A DNA stretch of 64,000 nt from Verrucomicrobiales bacterium (GTDB lineage: Bacteria > Verrucomicrobiota > Verrucomicrobiia > Limisphaerales > UBA9464), in assembly GCA_027489875.1 (NCBI GenBank), contig JAIXZE010000311.1, forward strand, positions 1-64,000. The letters are read 5' to 3'. Positions 7,439 to 45,489 of this stretch are shown here, in pieces (position 1 is the first letter of the stretch; each line of letters starts with the position of its first letter). The notes under the pieces were generated by a model. The model was given only the letters and a program-made list of their open reading frames with translations. It was not told the DNA's origin and did not search any database. The position numbers and the translations under genes were made by a program.

Positions 7439-9975
7439 TCGGGATTGGCCGTCACCGCTTCGTACGCCCGCACCAAGGCCGAACGCAGCTCTTCCCTCCG
7501 CACCGGCTTGGCCAGGTAGTCATCCATGCCGGAAGCGAGGCAGCGTTCCCGATCTTCGCGCATCGCATTCGCCGTCATGGCGATGATGTGGACCTTGGGA
7601 GCGCCGTTCCGCTCGCGCTCCCGGAGCCGGCGTGTGGTTTCGTAGCCGTCCATTTCCGGCATGAGGCAATCCATCAGGATGATGTCGAAACGGGCGGCTT
7701 CCACGGCATGCAGGACCTCGAGTCCGTTGAGGGCCGTCTCGGCCCGGCAACCGAGTCGCTCCAGCATCTTCACCGCCAGCAACCGGTTCGTCAGGTTATC
7801 CTCCGCAAGAAGGATCCTCAACCGTCCCAGTTCGGAGGGATCAACCACGATTCCTCCTGCCGAATGATCACCGGAACGGGTGGACGGGCGCTTCTGTACA
7901 ACGCCCGGCGGCGGCTCGGAACCGGGCAAGGGTGCCGCCAGTGCCTCGACCAGGCATTGATGCAATTGCGCCCGTTTGACCGGCTTCAACAGGAACACCA
8001 ACAAGCCTGCATCCCGGAGGGCCATGGAGTCCGGCCGTTCGTGCGCCGAGGAGAGCATCACCATGCGGGTCCCACACAACACCGGATCCCGATGGATGCG
8101 ACGGGCCAGCATCATCCCGTCCACCTCCGGCATCTGGAGGTCCAGGACGGCGAGGTCGTACGGTTTGCCCTCGCGAAGGGCTTCCCGCATCCGCGTTTCC
8201 GCGGTGGCAGCGTCTTCCACGGCCTCCGCCAGCACCTCCCACAGTTTCAATTGCTGCAGCAGCAACTGCCGGTTCGTGTCGTTGTCGTCCACGATCAGGA
8301 TCCGGCGGTTCACCAGAGGCGGAAGGACCACGGGAAGCGCCGGTGAACTCGCGGACTGGAAGTTCGCGGTGAACCAGAACAACGAACCGCGCCCAGCCTC
8401 GCTCTCGACGCCGATCTCGCCCTCCATCAGTTCCACCAGGCGCTTGCTGATGACCAATCCGAGTCCGGTGCCGCCGTACTTCCGGGTGGTCGAACTGTCG
8501 GCCTGGCTGAACGGTTGGAACAACCGTGAGCGGACCTCTTCCGAAATGCCGATGCCCGAATCCCGGACTTCAAAACGCAGGCGCGAACCACCATCAGGCA
8601 ATCCGGACTCGAGTTTGACCCGCAACAGGATGTCGCCACGCTCGGTGAACTTCACCGCGTTGCCCGTCAGGTTCAGGATGATCTGCCGCACCCGTGTCGG
8701 ATCCCCCATGAGGTACGGCGGGATCTGTTCATCCATCCAGAGGATGATCTCGAGCCCCTTCTTGTGGGCAGTCACTGCCAGCAGGTCGACGACGCCCTCG
8801 AGCAGGTGGCGAAGGTCGAACGGGGTCATCTCCAGCGTCATCCGGCCTGCCTCGATCCGCGACAGATCCAGGATGTCATTGATGATCGTGAGCAGGCTCG
8901 AGGCACTCTGCTGCACCAATTCCGCATGCGCCCGTTGCTCCGGTTGGAGCGGGGACTCGAGCAGCAGGCTGCTGAAGCCAAGGATGCCGTTCATTGGCGT
9001 CCGGATTTCATGGCTCATGGTCGCCAGGAACTCGCTCTTCGCCCTGCTCGCCGCCTGCGCCTCCCGGTACAGCTCGATCAACTCTTCCTTCTGTTTCTCG
9101 ATGCTGTCGCGGGACTGCGCCAATTGGTCGGCCATCCGGTTGAAACTCCGACCAAGGTCACCAATTTCATCGCTGCGGGTCATCTCGACCCGATGCTGGA
9201 ATTGCCCCTCGCCGAACTGTTGGGTGGCCTTCGCCAGGCGATGGATCGGATTCGTCAGGCTCCGGGCCAGCAACATTGCTCCCAAGGCAGCGATGATCGC
9301 GCTGAACATCGAGCTCACGAGCAGATCCTTGGCTATTTCCCGAGCGCGCTCATCCAGGAAGTCCACCGGCCGGTCCGCCTGAAGGACCGCCACCACGTTC
9401 GAATCCTCATCCTTCACCGGTGCCGCCGCCGAGATCCACCAACCGTACCCATCCCAATACAACCCGCGCGACGTCGCCTGATCATTCAGCGCGGACTCCA
9501 AATGCGGCTGCGTGCCATATCCGTTCCCCACGAAAAAATTCCCGTCCGGCCCGGGATCGGTCATCACCACGAACTCAAAGCGGTTGGTCGGGGAGGCGTC
9601 CTCCCGGGGGCGCATGATGTAGAGCGGACTGTGGAGGCTGTTGGTCAACCGATTGGCATACTTGACCTTCAGCAGGAGCTCGCGGTTCTCGATGAAGTCC
9701 GAATTGTCCGCCTGAAAAACCTCTCCGTTGGTCGGGCTGTTGATGGAACGAAGGGCACCTCCCTTGATTGCCGGAGCCACCGAATTGACCACGGCCAGGA
9801 GTTCGGCCTGCAACTGCTTCTCCAGAAAATCCTTCTGGTACTTGTACGCGGCAAACGACGACACACCGACCGCAAGTCCGATCAAGAGCAGGGAGAAGCC
9901 CACCAGGCGGAAATACAATCCCACCCGGCGCTTACGTCGGACCCCGCGGTTTGCTGGTGTCGTCGATTGCTCCAT
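7435..9975 (-). CDS. Hybrid sensor histidine kinase with two receiver domains
   Basis: The protein has 846 residues. It has a first membrane helix (~20-42), an extracytoplasmic sensing domain to ~215, a second helix (~220-238), HAMP, a HisKA domain with [11 protein letters not shown] (~residue 320), and an HATPase_c domain with LTGNAVKF and GTGLGLVIS. Two receiver domains follow, with phospho-acceptor aspartates in [10 protein letters not shown] (~611) and [10 protein letters not shown] (~767). No output domain or Hpt is visible, so phosphate must pass to a separate protein. The start MEQSTTP at 9975 was preferred because the upstream 64 codons look non-coding and the first helix follows soon. 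The sensed signal is unknown. Confidence 0.92.
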
Positions 9976-36899: not shown

Positions 36900-38320
36900 A
36901 CGCGCTTCCCCTTTCCCGCCGCGCCCTGCTGTCCCGAGCCGCCAACGGCTTCGGAGCGCTCGCCCTGGGAGCCCTGCTCCAACCCGCCTCCCGCGCCCTC
37001 GCTGGCCCCGGCCCTGACCCACTCACCCCACGCCCCGCCCACTTCCGTCCCCGCGCACGCAATGTGATCTTCCTCTTCATGGAAGGCGGCGTGTCCCAGG
37101 TGGACAGTTTCGACCCCAAGCCACGCCTCACCCGCCACCACGGCGAGGACCCGCGCAAGGCCATCGGCAAACTCGAGAAGACCCAGTTCGAAAACGTCGG
37201 CACGGTCTTCAAGTCCCCGTGGGAGTTCAGCCAACACGGCCAGTCCGGCCTCTGGATCTCCAACCTCTTCCCGCACGTCGCACGCCACGCCGACAAGCTT
37301 TGCGTCCTTCGCTCCATGACGTCCGCCTTCCCGGAGCACACCAGCGCGAATTACTTCCTCCATAGCGGCCTGGGCCTCCAGGGCCGCCCCTCCATGGGCG
37401 CATGGGTCGCCTACGGACTCGGCAGTTCCAACCACGACCTCCCCGGCTTCGTCGTCCTCAACGGCGGTCTCATCCCGCCCGGCGGCGTCGACTGCTTCGG
37501 CAACGGCTTCCTCCCCGCCACCTATCAGGGAACCCTCGTCAACGCCGTCGGCGCTCCCCTCCCCAACGTCGCCGCCATCGAAAAGGACCCCGCCCGCCAA
37601 TCCGCCAAGCAACGTCTCGCCCAACGACTCAACCGCGCCGGTCTCCTCCGCACCCCGGGAGACGACGCCCTCGAAAGCGCCATCGCCAACGCCGAACTCG
37701 CCGGACGCATGCAGTCCGCCGTCCCCGACTTCCTTGATCTCTCCGGCGAATCCGAGGCCACGCGCCAACTCTACGGCTGCGACGCCCCCTACGCCCCCAC
37801 CCGCATCTACGCCCGCGAGTGCCTCCTCGCCCGCCGTCTCATCGAACGGGGCGTCCGCTTCGTCGAACTCACCATCCCGAAGATCGACGGCCTCGACCGC
37901 TGGGACGCCCACTCCGACATCCTCAAGAACCACGGCAACAACGCCCGCGCCGTCGACCAACCCATCGCCGGACTCCTCTCCGACCTCCAGGCCCGCGGTC
38001 TCCTCGACGACACGCTCGTCGTCTGGTCCGGCGAATTCGGTCGCACCCCCTTTGCCCAGGGTTCCGACGGCCGCGACCACCACGAACACGCCTTCTCCGT
38101 CTGGCTCGCTGGCGGTGGTACGCGCGGTGGCTTTGCCTACGGACAGACCGACGAATGGGGCTATCGCATCGTCGAAAACCCGCTCCAGATGCACGACCTC
38201 CACGCCACCATCCTCCATCTCCTCGGCATGGACCACACCCGCCTCACCTACCGCTTCGGCGGCCGCGACATCCGCCTGACCGACGTCCACGGCGAAGTCA
38301 TCCAAGCCACCCTCGCATGA
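36896..38320 (+). CDS. DUF1501 family secreted protein A
   Basis: The 474-residue protein has a twin-arginine type leader (LSRRALLSRAANGFG). DUF1501 motifs are intact: FLFMEGGVSQVDSFDPKP, GAWVAYGLGSSNHDLPGFVV, VWSGEFGRTPFAQGSDGRDH and FSVWLAGGGTRGG. It is translationally coupled to the preceding DUF1553 gene by an ATGA overlap, and its own TGA overlaps a possible ATG of the next gene at 38317. The length is typical. The role is unknown beyond its alkaline-phosphatase-like fold and obligate partnership with DUF1549/DUF1553 proteins. Confidence 0.93.
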   Translation: MNALPLSRRALLSRAANGFGALALGALLQPASRALAGPGPDPLTPRPAHFRPRARNVIFLFMEGGVSQVDSFDPKPRLTRHHGEDPRKAIGKLEKTQFENVGTVFKSPWEFSQHGQSGLWISNLFPHVARHADKLCVLRSMTSAFPEHTSANYFLHSGLGLQGRPSMGAWVAYGLGSSNHDLPGFVVLNGGLIPPGGVDCFGNGFLPATYQGTLVNAVGAPLPNVAAIEKDPARQSAKQRLAQRLNRAGLLRTPGDDALESAIANAELAGRMQSAVPDFLDLSGESEATRQLYGCDAPYAPTRIYARECLLARRLIERGVRFVELTIPKIDGLDRWDAHSDILKNHGNNARAVDQPIAGLLSDLQARGLLDDTLVVWSGEFGRTPFAQGSDGRDHHEHAFSVWLAGGGTRGGFAYGQTDEWGYRIVENPLQMHDLHATILHLLGMDHTRLTYRFGGRDIRLTDVHGEVIQATLA

Positions 38321-38338
38321 CCTCTGCCAATCCCAGTC

Positions 38339-38361
38339 GATCAGACCGATCAGACCGATCC
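38339..38361. repeat. 9-bp tandem repeat at a gene junction
   Basis: The unit gatcagacc occurs twice in a row, followed by a partial third copy (gatccg). It lies exactly between the stop of the DUF1501 gene and the signal-peptide start of the next gene. In the longer reading of the next gene it would encode Ser-Asp-Arg repeats. Confidence 0.75.
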
Positions 38362-38373
38362 GTCGGATCGCCA

Positions 38374-41300
38374 ATGCCCCTCCGGCAACTCGTCGGTGCC
38401 CTCTGGCTGCTCGTTGCGCCCCTCCTCACCGCCGCTCCCTCCGAGCCCGACTTCACCCGCGAGGTCCGTCCCATCCTTTCCCGCCACTGCTTCAAGTGCC
38501 ACGGCCCGGACGAAACCACGCGCAAGGCGAAGCTCCGTCTCGACGAACGCGCCAGTGCCGTCCAACCCGCCAAGTCCGGAGCCATCGCTCTCGTCCCCGG
38601 AAAGCCTGAGGCCAGCGAACTCATCGCCCGCATCGTCACCGACGATCCCGACGAGATCATGCCTCCCCCCAGCACGAAGATGCCGCTGACCGCCGCCGAA
38701 AAGGACATCCTCCAACGCTGGGTACAGGCCGGCGGCGAATACCGCGCCCACTGGGCTTTCGTCCCACCCGTGATGACCGCACCTCCCAAGGTCCAGGACG
38801 AATCATGGACGCGTTCGCCCCTCGACCGCTTCGTCCTCGCCCGACTCGAAAAGGAGAAGCTCCGCCCGGCACCGCCCGCGGATCCCTACACGCTCATCCG
38901 TCGCGTCTCCTACGACCTGACCGGCCTTCCGCCCACGCCTGAGGAAGCCGACGCCTTCGCCGCGAACCCTTCCGATGCCGCATACGAGGCGCTCGTCGAT
39001 CGTCTGCTTGCCTCGCCCCGCTACGGCGAACGCTGGGGACGCCGTTGGCTCGACCTCGCCCGCTACGCCGACACCAACGGATACGAAAAGGACCGCAACC
39101 GCTCGATCTGGCCGTGGCGTGACTGGGTCATCCGCGCCCTGAACGACGACATGCCGTTCGACCAGTTCACCATGGAGCAACTCGCGGGCGATCTCCTCCC
39201 GAACCCGACGCGCGACCAGATCATCGCCACGGGTTTTCACCGGAACACGATGCTCAACGAGGAGGGTGGGATCGATCCGCTGGAGTTCCGCTTCCACGCC
39301 ATGACCGACCGCGTGGCCACCACGGGCACCGCTTGGTTGGGGCTCACGCTGGGCTGCGCGCAGTGCCACACCCACAAGTACGACCCCATCCAGCATCGCG
39401 AGTACTACGGCGTGATGGCTTTCCTCAATAACGCCGACGAACCCGACTACGACCTGCCCGAACCTGGATGGGAGGAAAAGCATCAGGCCAGACTCGCCCA
39501 GGCGGCCAAGCTCCTCGCCGACCTTCCCAACCGACTCCCAGTGGGCACGCGGTCCTGGACAACGCCCAAGCTCATCAGCGCCACCAGCGCCAGCGGCGAG
39601 ACGCCCACACGGCTCGAGGACCAGTCCGCGCTCTTCAGCGGCCCAACCCCTGAACACGACACCTATACCCTCGTCGTCGAGACCGATGCCTCCGGCTCCG
39701 ACGCCCTCCGCATCGAAGCCCTCGCCGATGATCGCCTTCCCGCCAAGGGGCCGGGACGCGTGAAGCACGGCAATTTCGTCCTCAGTGAAATCACGGTCAC
39801 GGCCGCCCCGAAATCCAACCCGACCGCCTCCCAACCGGTCGCCCTGACCCGGGCCGAAGCAGACATCGAACAATCCGGCTATCCCGCCGCCCACGCCATC
39901 GACGGCAACACGTCCTCCGGTTGGGCCATCCATAACGGCGACGGTGCCCTTGGCCATCCTCACTCGGTTTCCGTCCAGTTCGACAAACCAGTTGGTTTCC
40001 CCGGTGGCACCCGCTTCACCATCCGCCTCGATCACCGGAGCGCCGGCCAACACCTCATCGGCCGCCCACGCATCAGCCTTGCCGAGCCAACCTCAGACTC
40101 CCCATCCATCGCCGAACGCCGTCGCGAGACCATCAACCGGCGCTTCGAGGAATGGTTGGCCAAGGAACGTTCCCGCACCGTCCAGTGGACTCCCCTGCGC
40201 CCACACTCCGCCACTTCCAACCTCCCACTGCTCACCGTCGAGGCCGATGACGCCGTTTTCGTCTCCGGCGACATCACCAAGCTCGACACCTACGACCTCG
40301 GCTTCCGCACCGGTATCCGCGGCATTACCGCGGTCCGTCTCGAGGCGCTGCCCGATGACCGCCTCCCACGGCACGGTCCCGGCCTCGCCTATTACGAAGG
40401 CCCCAAAGGGGACTTTTTCCTGACCGAGTTCACCCTCACCGCCAACGGCAAGCCGGTGACATTCGGAAAGCCCTCCGCCAGTTACTCGAAGAACAACTTC
40501 GGAAGCAGCGCCTCTGCCGGCATGGCCACCGATGGCGATCCGCAGACGGGATGGTCCACCGCCGGCCGCGAAGGGGAACGCCACATCGCCATCTTCCCGC
40601 TCGAGACACCGCTCGCGGACGCCAGTGAATTGTCCCTGCGGATGCTCTTCGGCCGCCACTACGCCTGCTCGCTCGGCCGCTTCCGGATCTCCGTCACCAC
40701 GGCCACCGGAGAGATCACAGCACGCGACTTCCCCCATGGAATCGAAGACCTGCTGCTCATCCCAGACGCGCAGTTGACCGCCGCACAGCGCCAGTCGCTG
40801 ATGGAAACCTTCCTCCTCGCCCAACCCGAATTCGCCAAGGCCCGCGAGGAAATTGCCCGTCTGCGCAAGCCGCCCACCCACACCACGACCCTCGTCTTCC
40901 GCGAACGCCCCTCCGGCAACACGCGCCCCACCTTCCTCCACAAACGCGGCGAATACCTCCAACCCACCGATCGGATCGAACCTTCCGTCCTTTCCGCCGT
41001 GGCTCCATTCCCGCAGGACCTGCCCGTCAACCGACTCGGATTCGCCCGCTGGCTCGTGTCCACCAACAACCCACTCACCGCCCGCGTCACCGTCAACCGG
41101 CAGTGGCAGGCCTTCTTCGCCCGCGGCATCGTCCGAACAACCGAGGACTTCGGACTGCAAGGCGAGGCCCCCAGCCACCCGGAACTCCTCGATTGGCTCG
41201 CCATCGAGTTCATGCGCCAGGGTTGGTCGCTCAAAAAGCTGCACCGTCTCATCGTCCTGAGCGCCACGTATCGTCAGTCCTCCCGGGTGTCCGCCGAAGT

Positions 41301-41946
41301 GGCCGCTCTCGATCCCGACAATCATCTCCTCTCCCGCGGCCCACAGGTCCGCCTCGAGGCCGAGATCATCCGCGACGCCGCACTCCGTGCCAGCGGTCTG
41401 CTTTCGACCAAGATGGGCGGCCCCGGCGTCTACCCGCCCCAACCTTCGGGCGTCACCGATGTCGCCTATGGCGGCGGTTCCTGGAATGCCTCGGAGGGTG
41501 AAGACAGGCACCGTCGTTCGGTTTACACCTTCACCAAACGCACCGCGCCCTTCGCAATGTTCAACACCTTCGACGCACCCACCGGCGAGTCCTGCATCGC
41601 GCGTCGCGACGTCTCCAACACCCCTCTCCAGGCACTCACCCTCCTGAACGATGTCTTCTTCATGGAAGCTTCCCAGGCCATGGGTCGCCTCCTCGCTACG
41701 CAGTCCGGGTCCGATGAGGACCGCATCCGAAGCGCCTTCCGTCGCTGCCTCACGCGACCACCAGCCCCCACCGAACTCGACGTACTCACCCGCTTCCTCC
41801 AGACACAGCGCTCCCGGTTCACCTCCGGCCATCTGGACCCAGCCCCCATCGCCGGCCCCGGCGAGACTCCGCCTGCCGAACGCGCCGCCTGGACCACTCT
41901 CGCCCGCGCCCTTCTCAACACCGACGAGATGATCACCAAGGACTGA
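38374..41946 (+). CDS. Planctomycete-type cytochrome, DUF1549/DUF1553 protein B
   Basis: The 1190-residue secreted protein has a signal peptide ([16 protein letters not shown]), a PSCyt1 haem site CFKCH (39-43), a DUF1549 domain with [20 protein letters not shown] and a second CAQCH site, a long middle part with an F5/8C or LamG-like beta region ([17 protein letters not shown]) and a repeated [30 protein letters not shown] segment, then DUF1553. The start at 38374 puts the signal peptide first. An ATG at 38317 overlapping the previous stop would add 19 residues containing a Ser-Asp-Arg repeat. It pairs with the DUF1501 gene at 42014. Confidence 0.92.
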
Positions 41947-42013
41947 TGAACCCTCCGATCGTGACATCGGTAAACACGTCGATGCCCATCATCTGCGGAC
42001 GCCCAAGCCTTCC

Positions 42014-43459
42014 ATGAATCCCCTCCAGCAACACTGCCTCGACGTCACCCGACGCCACTTCCTCCGCGGATGCGGCGTGGGCCTCGGCAAGATCGCCCTC
42101 GCCGGCCTCCTCACGGACAAACTCGCCGGGCACGCCCTCGCCGCCAACGTCAACCCGGGGCCGTCCCTCCTTCCGCGACAACCCCACTTCACCCCCAAGG
42201 CCAAACGCGTCATCCATCTGTTCATGGCCGGCGCACCCAGCCAACTCGAACTCTTCGACAACAAACCCGAACTCTCCCGCCTCGAGGGCAAACCCCTGCC
42301 GCCTTCCGTCATCGGCGGCCAACGCTATGCCTTCATCCGGCCCGACGCCGCCGTGCTCGGCCCCCGATTCAAGTTCGCACGCCACGGCAAGTCCGGCGCG
42401 GAACTCTCCGAGATGCTCCCGCACCTCGCGAAGATCGTCGACGACATCACCCTCATCCGCTCCGTCCACACGGACCAGTTCAACCACGCCCCGGCGCAGA
42501 TCTTCTTCAATACCGGATTCTCCCAGCCCGGCCGTCCCTGCATCGGATCCTGGGCCCTCTACGGCCTCGGCGCGGAAACCCAGAACCTACCCGCGTTCGT
42601 CGTCATGAGCACCGGATCCGGCCTCTCCGGCGGATCCGCCCTCTGGTCCTCAGGCTTCCTGCCCACCGTTTACTCCGGCGTGCGGCTCCGGAACCAGGGT
42701 CCGCCCATCCTCAACGTCAACAGCCCCGCCGGCGTCGACCCACAACTCCAGCGCGACACCCTCGACGTCGTCGGTGCCCTCAACCGCAAGCGGATGACCG
42801 ACGCTTCCGCTCCCGAGGTCGCCACCCGCATGGCTTCCTATGAGATGGCGTTCCGACTCCAGACCTCCGCCCCCGAACTCATGGACCTCAAGGGCGAGTC
42901 CCGCGAAACCCTCGCCATGTACGGATGCGATCCCGACAAGCCCTCGTTCGCCCGCGCCTGCCTTCTTGCGCGCCGCATGATCGAACGAGGTGTCCGCTTC
43001 GTGAACATCTACCACGAAGGCTGGGACGCCCACTCCGACGTTGCCGGCAACGTGAAGGGGAACGCCGCCACCACCGACCAGGCCAGCGCTGCCCTGGTCA
43101 CCGACCTGAAGCAACGCGGCCTCCTCGACGACACCCTCGTCGTCTGGGGCGGCGAGTTCGGTCGCACCCCCATGGTCGAGTTCAACCCAGCCCTGGGACG
43201 CAACCTCGGACGCGATCACCATCCCCAGGCCTACACCATGTGGATGGCCGGCGGCGGCATCCGTGCGGGACTCACCTATGGGGCCACCGATGACCTCGGC
43301 TTCCACGTCGTCGAGAACCCCGTCCACGTCCACGACATCCAGGCCACCCTCATGCACTGCCTCGGTTTCGACCACGAACGCCTCACCTACCACCACGCCG
43401 GACGCGACTACCGTCTCACCGATGTCCACGGCCAGGTCGTGAAGGCCCTGCTGGCCTGA
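42014..43459 (+). CDS. DUF1501 family secreted protein B
   Basis: The 481-residue protein has a twin-arginine leader (DVTRRHFLRGCGVGLG). DUF1501 motifs are LFMAGAPSQLELFDNKP, GSWALYGLGAETQNLPAFVV, VWGGEFGRTPMVEFNPALG and RDHHPQAYTMWMAGGGIRAG. It begins 67 bases after its DUF1549/DUF1553 partner. It resembles the solitary copy at 13193 more than copy A in the AGRDYRLTDVHG ending, although all three share that region. The role is unknown; it is expected to be periplasmic. Confidence 0.93.
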   Translation: MNPLQQHCLDVTRRHFLRGCGVGLGKIALAGLLTDKLAGHALAANVNPGPSLLPRQPHFTPKAKRVIHLFMAGAPSQLELFDNKPELSRLEGKPLPPSVIGGQRYAFIRPDAAVLGPRFKFARHGKSGAELSEMLPHLAKIVDDITLIRSVHTDQFNHAPAQIFFNTGFSQPGRPCIGSWALYGLGAETQNLPAFVVMSTGSGLSGGSALWSSGFLPTVYSGVRLRNQGPPILNVNSPAGVDPQLQRDTLDVVGALNRKRMTDASAPEVATRMASYEMAFRLQTSAPELMDLKGESRETLAMYGCDPDKPSFARACLLARRMIERGVRFVNIYHEGWDAHSDVAGNVKGNAATTDQASAALVTDLKQRGLLDDTLVVWGGEFGRTPMVEFNPALGRNLGRDHHPQAYTMWMAGGGIRAGLTYGATDDLGFHVVENPVHVHDIQATLMHCLGFDHERLTYHHAGRDYRLTDVHGQVVKALLA

Positions 43460-44106: not shown

Positions 44107-44146
44107 TTTGCAACTGCACGTCGCATATGCGACGCGCAGTTGCAAA
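44107..44146. repeat. Palindrome A (module 1, left)
   Basis: This is a 40-base inverted repeat with a single mismatched pair (44118/44135). The core cgtcgcatatgcgacg is a perfect 16-base palindrome at 44119-44134. The outer arms are tttgcaactgc and gcagttgcaaa. It is not followed by a T-run, so it does not look like a terminator. Confidence 0.92.
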
Positions 44147-44179
44147 ACCCCTTCCGAATACCCCCCATTCAGTGCCCCA

Positions 44180-44219
44180 TTTGCATCCGGACGTCGCATA
44201 TGCGACGTCCGGATGCAAA
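44180..44219. repeat. Palindrome B (module 1, right)
   Basis: This is a perfect 40-base palindrome with the same 16-base core as palindrome A but different outer arms, tttgcatccgga and tccggatgcaaa. Its centre is 73 bases from that of palindrome A. It is identical to palindrome D at 45450-45489. Confidence 0.95.
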
Positions 44220-44544
44220 CCGCGCCCCTTCCACAACACACCTGAGCCGGTTTCCCGGCGTGCCCGACCCGGCCGAAAGCGACCGGGCACATGTCGGTTC
44301 CCTAAAACGGCTAAATCACCGTCATCTGCCCTGCATCAGGCCTGTGTGAGGTGTCCTCATGCAAAGCATGGAAACCAGACGGACGGATGTGACCGCTCGC
44401 CATGCAGGGTCGACATTCAAGGCCAGGCTTGCCTGCGCCAACTCGGCTGATGGGTGGCCTCCAGTTGGGACCGCCAGGGCTGCCGGCGCGGAAGTCCCCG
44501 CAGAAAAGGATGCATCAGGTCCTGGACGGCACTACCCGTTCCAC

Positions 44545-45330
44545 ATGCAACCCAAGACCGAATTGCTCCTTTACCACCTGCTGTGGCATCTCGACCGGGT
44601 AACCCGGCCAACCTTCCGGAACCTCACAGACTCCTACGAAGGCTGGGCCTACCGGCGCGGTTTCCTGCACCAGATCCGACGTCTGGAAGCGCAGGGCTTC
44701 CTTGAACGACAGCCGGATGCCGTCTGTCCCATCTATCGATTGAGCGATACGGGACGCGTTGCCGCCTTGGGTGGACGTGATCCTGATCAGGCTTGGGAAC
44801 GTCCATGGGACGGTCTCTGGCACACGCTCGTATTTGACGTGCCAGTGGTCCACGACAACGCCCGTGCCCGGCTACGCCGACGATTGAAGGCATCCTGTTT
44901 CGGGTATCTCCAGAATAGCGTCTGGATCTCGCCGGACCCTTTCCCCGACGATCTGGAGAGCCTTGTTGAGGAAGTTGAGAATGTGGAGTTCATCACCCGC
45001 TTCACCGCACGGGCAACCGAACTGAAGACCGACCTCCGCATCGCTCAGGCGGCGTGGCCATTCGAGGAGATCAACCGCAGGTACAGTCGGTGCAAGGAAA
45101 TCCTCAACAACTTCCCAGTCGAGGAGACCGAACAGGAGTTTTCACCCGAGCGCTTGCTGGACTGGTCGAAAGCAGAGCATGCCGCCTGGAAGCGGGTGCT
45201 GGAAATCGACCCATTTCTGCCCTTGGCACTCCTTCCACCGGGATACCAAGGCTGCGAGGTCTGGAACCTGCGACGAAGCGTGCTCGCACAGGCCGGGGAA
45301 TCAGTGCTGAGCCTGGGCTGCATTGCCTGA
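44545..45330 (+). CDS. PaaX-type transcriptional regulator with Cas2-like domain
   Basis: The 261-residue protein has an N-terminal winged-helix region (1-75, LLLYHLLWHLDRVTRPTFRN, RRLEAQGFLERQ), a middle ferredoxin-like domain (88-170) with WDGLWHTLVFDVPVVHDNA, LRRRLKASCFGYLQNSVWIS and a final ITRFTAR strand, and a C-terminal helical part from ~171. This is the PaaX layout. In that family the middle domain is structurally related to Cas2, and known members repress degradation operons by binding palindromes. It sits alone between two copies of a palindrome module. The start MQPKTE fits the winged helix; an ATG at 44359 with a better Shine-Dalgarno is the alternative. No phenylacetate-pathway genes are nearby. 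Confidence 0.78.
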   Translation: MQPKTELLLYHLLWHLDRVTRPTFRNLTDSYEGWAYRRGFLHQIRRLEAQGFLERQPDAVCPIYRLSDTGRVAALGGRDPDQAWERPWDGLWHTLVFDVPVVHDNARARLRRRLKASCFGYLQNSVWISPDPFPDDLESLVEEVENVEFITRFTARATELKTDLRIAQAAWPFEEINRRYSRCKEILNNFPVEETEQEFSPERLLDWSKAEHAAWKRVLEIDPFLPLALLPPGYQGCEVWNLRRSVLAQAGESVLSLGCIA

Positions 45331-45377
45331 CGAAGCCTTGGCAACCGCCCGCAGTCATCGGCGGCAAGCCCCGTCCA

Positions 45378-45417
45378 TTTGCAACGGCACGTCGCATATG
45401 CGACGCGCCGTTGCAAA
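45378..45417. repeat. Palindrome C (module 2, left)
   Basis: This 40-base inverted repeat matches palindrome A except for one base in each arm: actgc/gcagt becomes acggc/gccgt. The two changes compensate each other, so pairing is kept. The same single a/c mismatch beside the core is also kept. Confidence 0.92.
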
Positions 45418-45449
45418 ACGCCTCCCAAACACCCCCGATTTACCCTCCA

Positions 45450-45489
45450 TTTGCATCCGGACGTCGCATATGCGACGTCCGGATGCAAA
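45450..45489. repeat. Palindrome D (module 2, right)
   Basis: This perfect 40-base palindrome is identical to palindrome B. Its centre is 72 bases from that of palindrome C, nearly the 73-base spacing of module 1. The linkers between palindromes in the two modules are also recognisably similar, for example accccc followed by gattta or cattca. Confidence 0.95.

Follow-up and report, generated by a model that had tools for sequence, protein, structure and literature searches.

A single PaaX/Cas2-like gene, surrounded by four 40-bp palindromes of the design TTTGCA-N6-CGTCGCATATGCGACG-N6-TGCAAA, was found at positions 44107–45489 of the window, the whole 64,000-nucleotide stretch of DNA that was analysed. 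The arrangement is probably best explained as a REPtron-like unit, in which a gene for a winged-helix, Cas2-fold protein of the PaaX type is framed by its presumed recognition palindromes and the same palindromes are dispersed elsewhere. The initial annotation had described two modules of about 112 bp in the same orientation, each with an A-type and a B-type 40-bp palindrome around an identical core, and this was confirmed, with module lengths of 113 and 112 bp. The features of the island, with the evidence for each in brackets, are as follows.

44107–44146, no strand: B-type palindrome of the 5′ module, TTTGCA-ACTGCA-core-CGCAGT-TGCAAA, with one unpaired position (sequence, folding)
44147–44179, plus strand: linker of the 5′ module, 33 nt (doublet comparison)
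44180–44219, no strand: A-type perfect palindrome of the 5′ module, TTTGCA-TCCGGA-core-TCCGGA-TGCAAA (sequence, folding)
44545–45330, plus strand: PaaX/Cas2-like gene, 261 aa (Pfam, genome-wide search, family alignment, AlphaFold/Foldseek)
44836–44838, plus strand: codon of Asp98, motif F-D-V-P (alignment of 99 proteins)
45378–45417, no strand: B-type palindrome of the 3′ module, TTTGCA-ACGGCA-core-CGCCGT-TGCAAA (sequence, folding)
45418–45449, plus strand: linker of the 3′ module, 32 nt (doublet comparison)
45450–45489, no strand: A-type perfect palindrome of the 3′ module, identical to 44180–44219 (sequence)

The palindromes pair up as two B-A doublets, one on each side of the gene, with spacings of 73 bp (5′) and 72 bp (3′). 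The exact 16-mer CGTCGCATATGCGACG is common to all four, and its chance expectation in dinucleotide shuffles was 0.01 matches per window, even at 2 mismatches. The two modules share 90% identity over 118 bp, a similarity that ends about 4 bp outside them. The A-type palindromes (TCCGGA arms) are perfect (20+20), and each stem of the B-type ones contains a single unpaired position (A opposite C). Folded as single strands, the modules form two hairpins each, with folding energies of −44 and −45 kcal/mol and z values of about −12.7 against shuffles. The 5′ module lies 325 bp from the gene, and both the doubled module and this long 5′ gap are peculiar to the source genome. When compared with Rfam, the island gave no accepted match, only sub-threshold microRNA hairpin look-alikes, and its reading as a terminator or sigma-70 promoter was dropped after searches that included a sigma-70 consensus scan returned no match. 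Upstream, at 37819–43459 of the window, a planctomycete-type cytochrome c/DUF1549/DUF1553 gene that long opposite-strand ORFs overlap is followed by a DUF1501 gene.

The sole gene between the modules encodes, as had been proposed, a winged-helix protein with a Cas2-like domain. Its only Pfam matches were PaaX_M, the Cas2-like domain (E 2e-18; 66.7 bits against a curated cut-off of 24), and PaaX_C (24.4 against 22 bits), without Y1_Tnp, and the domain order is a winged-helix N-terminal part, the Cas2-like middle and PaaX_C. The whole-genome search returned one gene with a PaaX_M match in the source genome. The start was placed at 44545 by family alignment and not at the first ATG (44359), and the AlphaFold model of the resulting 261-aa protein had a mean pLDDT of 81. 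Foldseek matched this model to E. coli PaaX (8a39) and Rv0674, followed by Cas2 and VapD for the middle domain, E. coli PaaX 8a39 being the best solved match both by sequence and by fold. Asp98 (motif F-D-V-P), located where the first strand of the Cas2-like domain ends, is Asp in 99 of 99 proteins, with Arg107, Gln123 and several Trp also invariant or nearly so; E. coli PaaX and Rv0674 lack an Asp at this position, the one where Cas2 proteins have their first-strand Asp. Conservation of Asp98 gives a reason for testing nuclease activity but is no evidence of it, and the residue could be structural.

Several other identities were considered for this protein. Classical PaaX was not supported, with a TIGR02277 score of 75.2 bits (cut-off 264.55) and no pathway genes among the scanned neighbours. 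The earlier remark that such genes are missing nearby thus held: the PSCyt1/DUF1549/DUF1553 gene, the DUF1501 gene, a 177-aa ORF, an arrestin-N-like protein and a DUF3500 gene were scanned, and none was a phenylacetate gene. A stand-alone CRISPR Cas2 was not supported either, given the length of 261 aa, the winged helix and PaaX_C, and PADLOC Cas2 models that matched residues 95–128 only, weakly (E 5e-4). A defence or phage origin was likewise dropped, with nothing beyond this weak Cas2-domain match and with the window protein lacking a PHROG match. Among plasmid relatives of the protein, one distant match was found.

In the source genome the core was counted 74 times at ≤1 mismatch, 59 of them exact, with 17 strict doublets, all spaced 72–73 bp. 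The 70 palindromes read in 828 kb carried 0–2 changes over 28 fixed positions and none had 3–9, the copies outside these 828 kb being counted and not read base by base; nearly all 70 copies have the ends TTTGCA and TGCAAA. The linkers measured 32–33 nt in all 28 doublets examined, with a mean mutual identity of only 41%. The palindromes are thus strongly conserved, whereas the linkers drift freely. With respect to genes, 31 of 39 elements were clear of crudely called genes and 8 overlapped a called ORF; 12 lay in tandem, 6 in divergent and 1 in convergent intergenic regions, against 149, 55 and 41 for all intergenic regions, so that the classes did not differ clearly and no clear preference for promoter-type regions was observed. 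The exact core was not found in 8 congeners and 49 further relatives (57 genomes), and the exact-core family is therefore considered lineage-specific.

Many contigs of the source genome, G000, stop at most a few hundred bases away from a palindrome (C46, C53, C76, C180, C226, C236, C282, C283, C359 and C379; loci L025, L027, L030, L037–L041, L047 and L048). The repeat therefore appears to break the assembly, and more copies probably exist than were counted. A subfamily of the modules is embedded in a longer conserved repeat of about 250–400 bp with shared flanks on both sides (L024, L025, L026, L028, L036, L046, L082, L088 and others). Two further repeats occur in dozens of places in G000: an unrelated, partly self-complementary one of about 137 bp (e.g., L088:16526–16661) and another of about 200 bp.

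Single palindromes are best read as joined remnants of doublets, on three grounds. Locus L024 is flanked like an L028-type doublet, but its single palindrome consists of the left arm of the first member and the right arm of the second. The arms of doublet members are complementary at 4.79 of 6 pairs, compared with 3.15 in shuffles, whereas isolated singles show no excess (3.2 against 3.45 of 6). Finally, among the relatives, L210 and L216 have two palindromes and about 225–235 bp of extra sequence where L220 and L212 have one. Such core-to-core deletion could be explained by ordinary slippage between repeats, without any protein.

The copies do not always flank PaaX-type genes, a point on which the initial annotation had asked for a check: just 4 of the 74 cores in the source genome adjoin the gene. 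This low fraction is what would be expected if a common dispersed repeat had come to lie on both sides of an unrelated gene, and many copies with no PaaX link, which had been held to indicate such a coincidence, are indeed partly what the source genome shows (74 cores, one gene). The argument fails across genomes, where the link is strong and gene-specific palindrome framing of PaaX-type genes recurs in dozens of genomes. Chance landing was rejected, and its probability is considered negligible, because related PaaX-type genes have their own matched palindromes and palindrome-rich genomes are mostly PaaX-positive. The search of related genomes suggested earlier had a divided outcome, the exact core being absent from the 57 searched for it and palindromes of other sequence framing PaaX-type genes in other Verrucomicrobiota.

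In the relatives the design of the framing is the same and the sequence is different. The palindromes are usually single and close to each gene end, typically ending about 36 bp upstream of the start codon and 5–10 bp downstream of the stop codon, and the resulting unit of about 900 bp has room for the PaaX-type gene only. Two partly overlapping sets of loci were evaluated, with flanks defined as 250 bp from the strand-corrected gene ends and palindrome thresholds chosen by the analyst. In the first (48 loci, all from the same order), 23.5 kb of gene flanks contained 61 palindromes and 170 kb elsewhere contained 12 (2.59 versus 0.07 per kb), with palindromes on both sides in 21 of 48 loci. In the second, formed by the best 80 of 133 named loci, the densities were 2.63 and 0.10 per kb; at least one side carried a palindrome in 60 of 80 loci, both sides in 36, and neither, at the threshold used, in 20. 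Enrichment beside the genes was thus 25–37-fold over the rest of the same loci. The 80 loci are apparently all from Verrucomicrobiota (Limisphaerales/Pedosphaera, Akkermansiaceae, Opitutaceae, Kiritimatiellae and Methylacidiphilum) and came from a scan of named genomes with the family alignment, which reaches close relatives only; the same genomes scanned with the single island protein gave no match. An identical palindrome test at the ends of E. coli paaX was negative.

The two palindromes of a locus are matched, agreeing at 25.4 of 28 positions within the same locus and at 14.4 of 28 between different loci; none of 100,000 permutations reached the within-locus agreement. Palindrome identity also tracks protein identity (Mantel r 0.676; 0 of 5000 permutations), which is taken as a sign of co-inheritance and not of recognition, since shared descent of gene and flank gives the same correlation. 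One subfamily is often located near ubiD or a fragment of it, which suggests long residence rather than frequent jumping; the gene, which we presume to be ubiD, was named by inspection of its sequence. In L106, L113, L158, L193, L207, L265 and L272, PaaX units or remnants have fragments of its 3′ end (C-terminal 30–120 residues) nearby; L113 has two such fragments, beside the 3′ palindrome. A full ubiD is found close to the unit in L190, L195 and L211.

Operators on both sides of the gene had been another of the proposed readings. PaaX of E. coli is a DNA-binding repressor, palindromes suit a dimer, and the intergenic regions that hold elements in the source genome are mostly tandem (12) or divergent (6), with 1 convergent, all of which would agree with an ordinary repressor whose flanking palindromes are its own autoregulatory operators and whose dispersed copies are the operators of a regulon. 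This explanation is nevertheless rather unlikely. Palindromes are about as frequent 3′ as 5′ of the genes (46 and 50 of 80 loci), often within 10 bp after the stop codon; the element classes are not clearly different from all intergenic regions; absence of the exact family from all the congeners and other relatives searched would be unusual for a regulon; and the sigma-70 scan of the island found no promoter-like site. Additionally, doublets of fixed spacing, hybrid singles and the duplicated unit and empty site described below are not expected of operators. A regulatory role alongside the repeat role is possible, and to this extent the operator reading is retained; of the three proposed readings, a mobile or REP-like unit with the modules as its ends is the best supported.

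Dispersal of cognate palindromes was also observed in other genomes, nearly all of them fragmented metagenome assemblies. The pattern TTGTYGCANNTGCRACAA (≤1 mismatch) was present in 71, 21, 18, 11 and 9 copies in five PaaX-positive relatives, and the reversed-pattern control was 0 everywhere. Among 245 genomes drawn evenly from the order, TGTYGCANNTGCRACA reached 4 or more copies in 19 of the 37 that matched PaaX_M strongly, compared with 5 of 208 others (Fisher p 5e-14, the genomes not being independent). The remaining 18 of the 37 had fewer than 4 copies of this core, the one searched, and other cores are dispersed in other positives, such as TTGTAACAATTGTTACAA in G116 and TTGTCCCGATCGGGACAA in G263; these were revealed by the loose pattern TTGTNNCNNNNGNNACAA, which is too permissive for counts. 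Among the five palindrome-rich genomes without a strong PaaX match, G117 and G090 have PaaX remnants beside palindromes, G166 is 75% complete, and G085 and G128 have 26 and 7 core copies and no convincing PaaX-type gene, for which a lost partner, an assembly gap or another enzyme are the candidate readings.

A role in organising the chromosome, like that of ParB/parS or of Noc with its sites, would make the palindromes a host function and not selfish repeats, and would agree with their strong conservation, their location between genes and their number, tens per genome. This is very unlikely in view of the patchy presence of the system, the differences in sites between related genomes, the PaaX remnants and a copy number that ranges from few to 74.

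Signs of mobility were found at a small number of loci. Contigs C5 and C61 of G090 both end within an identical PaaX 3′ end; they are identical from the outer edge of the palindrome onwards (141 of 141 bp), and their flanks are unrelated. The simplest reading of this pair would be a collapsed recent duplication of the unit. The initial annotation had also raised the question of empty sites, and one was found for a palindrome of the relatives: at an orthologous intergenic site, 64 bp with the palindrome lie between conserved flanks in G146 and are absent in G166, a difference that may reflect gain or loss, in either direction. In the comparison made as for insertion sequences, the two G090 copies shared the palindrome end and elsewhere single or diverged copies were seen; no target duplication was found among the units compared, which come from fragmented assemblies. 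Between families, the similarity of units tends to begin and end near the palindrome edges, with unit identity of 85–90%. This identity was dropped as proof of horizontal transfer, because the ubiD or ubiD fragment near some units is equally similar. In L282 (G090:C23), palindromes at 9387 and 10157, 770 bp apart, have longer similar flanks, and no PaaX was detected between them.

The palindromes might instead be spread by another enzyme, for example a transposase of the IS200/IS605 or RAYT type, with the PaaX-type gene as a passenger or silencer. The enzymes of IS200/IS605 are HUH transposases, hairpins are typical substrates of such enzymes, and three genes of the Y1 type, including a RAYT-like one, are present in the source genome. 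Not even half of the core or arm motif was found at any of these Y1 loci, however, the unit of about 900 bp in typical relatives fits the PaaX-type gene only, and the association across the phylum is with PaaX-type genes, all of which makes this explanation distinctly unlikely; a RAYT partner was dropped, there being no palindromes beside the three Y1 genes. The RAYT-like Y1 gene is that of L019 (G000:C449:544–873), which matched NF047646 with 59.8 bits, below the cut-off of 80.

In the preferred REPtron-like reading, the palindromes are dispersed as small non-coding elements, here mostly as doublets with 72–73 bp spacing. The PaaX-type protein would bind them as double-stranded or hairpin DNA, probably in the form of a symmetric dimer, and would drive their spread, exchange or excision, with Asp98 of the Cas2-like domain presumably taking part. 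The gene is usually single or low in copy while its palindromes multiply, as in RAYT/REPIN pairs. That the protein binds, cuts and spreads the palindromes is inferred. In a stronger and tentative form, doubtful at present, the PaaX-type proteins of Verrucomicrobiota may be Cas2-fold enzymes that cut or join hairpin palindromes via Asp98 and so spread, exchange and excise their own REP-like repeats. If true, this would be a system of mobile repeats that does not depend on HUH transposases, and the folds of CRISPR adaptation would be connected to mobile DNA by a second route besides Cas1/casposons. Whether this fold handles DNA hairpins is a question raised by its retained Cas2-type Asp, and one that bears on the origin of Cas2. 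A PaaX branch annotated as a transcription regulator is recast as a likely partner of dispersed DNA. As another protein family, with palindromes that match and diverge along with it, it offers a new class of candidate and a protein–site pair open to direct testing.

The closest known system is the REPtron (RAYT with REP/REPIN), with which the unit shares a low-copy gene framed by hairpin repeats, copies dispersed as intergenic singles and doublets, conserved repeat ends, a variable spacer and gene-specific repeat families. A gene flanked by a repeat that is dispersed genome-wide, by which REPtrons are recognised, was found both in the source genome and in relatives. The REP doublets of SBW25 are commonly spaced by 71 and 110 bp, and its singlets have been interpreted as remnants (PMC3116915). 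The enzyme of REPtrons is an HUH tyrosine transposase and the REP tag is GTAG, and CGTC-tagged REPs are dispersed short palindromes, often dimers, for which no dedicated transposase was found (PMC3733652). The present unit differs in its protein, which is PaaX/Cas2-like, with no Y1/HUH REP-associated tyrosine transposase in the unit, and in its repeat, an almost perfect palindrome whose ends carry no GTAG or CGTC tag. The dispersed, often paired short palindromes resemble CGTC-tagged REPs, but here CGTC lies within the stem and not at one end, and the palindromes frame a gene. Fold and domain order are those of classical PaaX (TIGR02277; 8a39), from which the protein is set apart by its low TIGR02277 score, the absence of paa genes nearby and the presence of Asp98, and, unlike E. 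coli paaX, the gene has flanking palindromes. Palindromes at the ends of a short element are shared with IS200/IS605, whose HUH transposase is not encoded in the PaaX units, and with palindrome-associated transposable elements, a term that occurs in PMC3119063. A literature search that covered few subscription journals returned no paper linking PaaX with palindromic repeats or describing REPs of Verrucomicrobiota. Because the architecture is REPtron-like while the REPtron enzyme and repeat tag were tested for and found absent, the unit is classed, with caution, as a new kind of repeat-and-protein partnership that appears to work like a REPtron but is not one, its mechanism being inferred.
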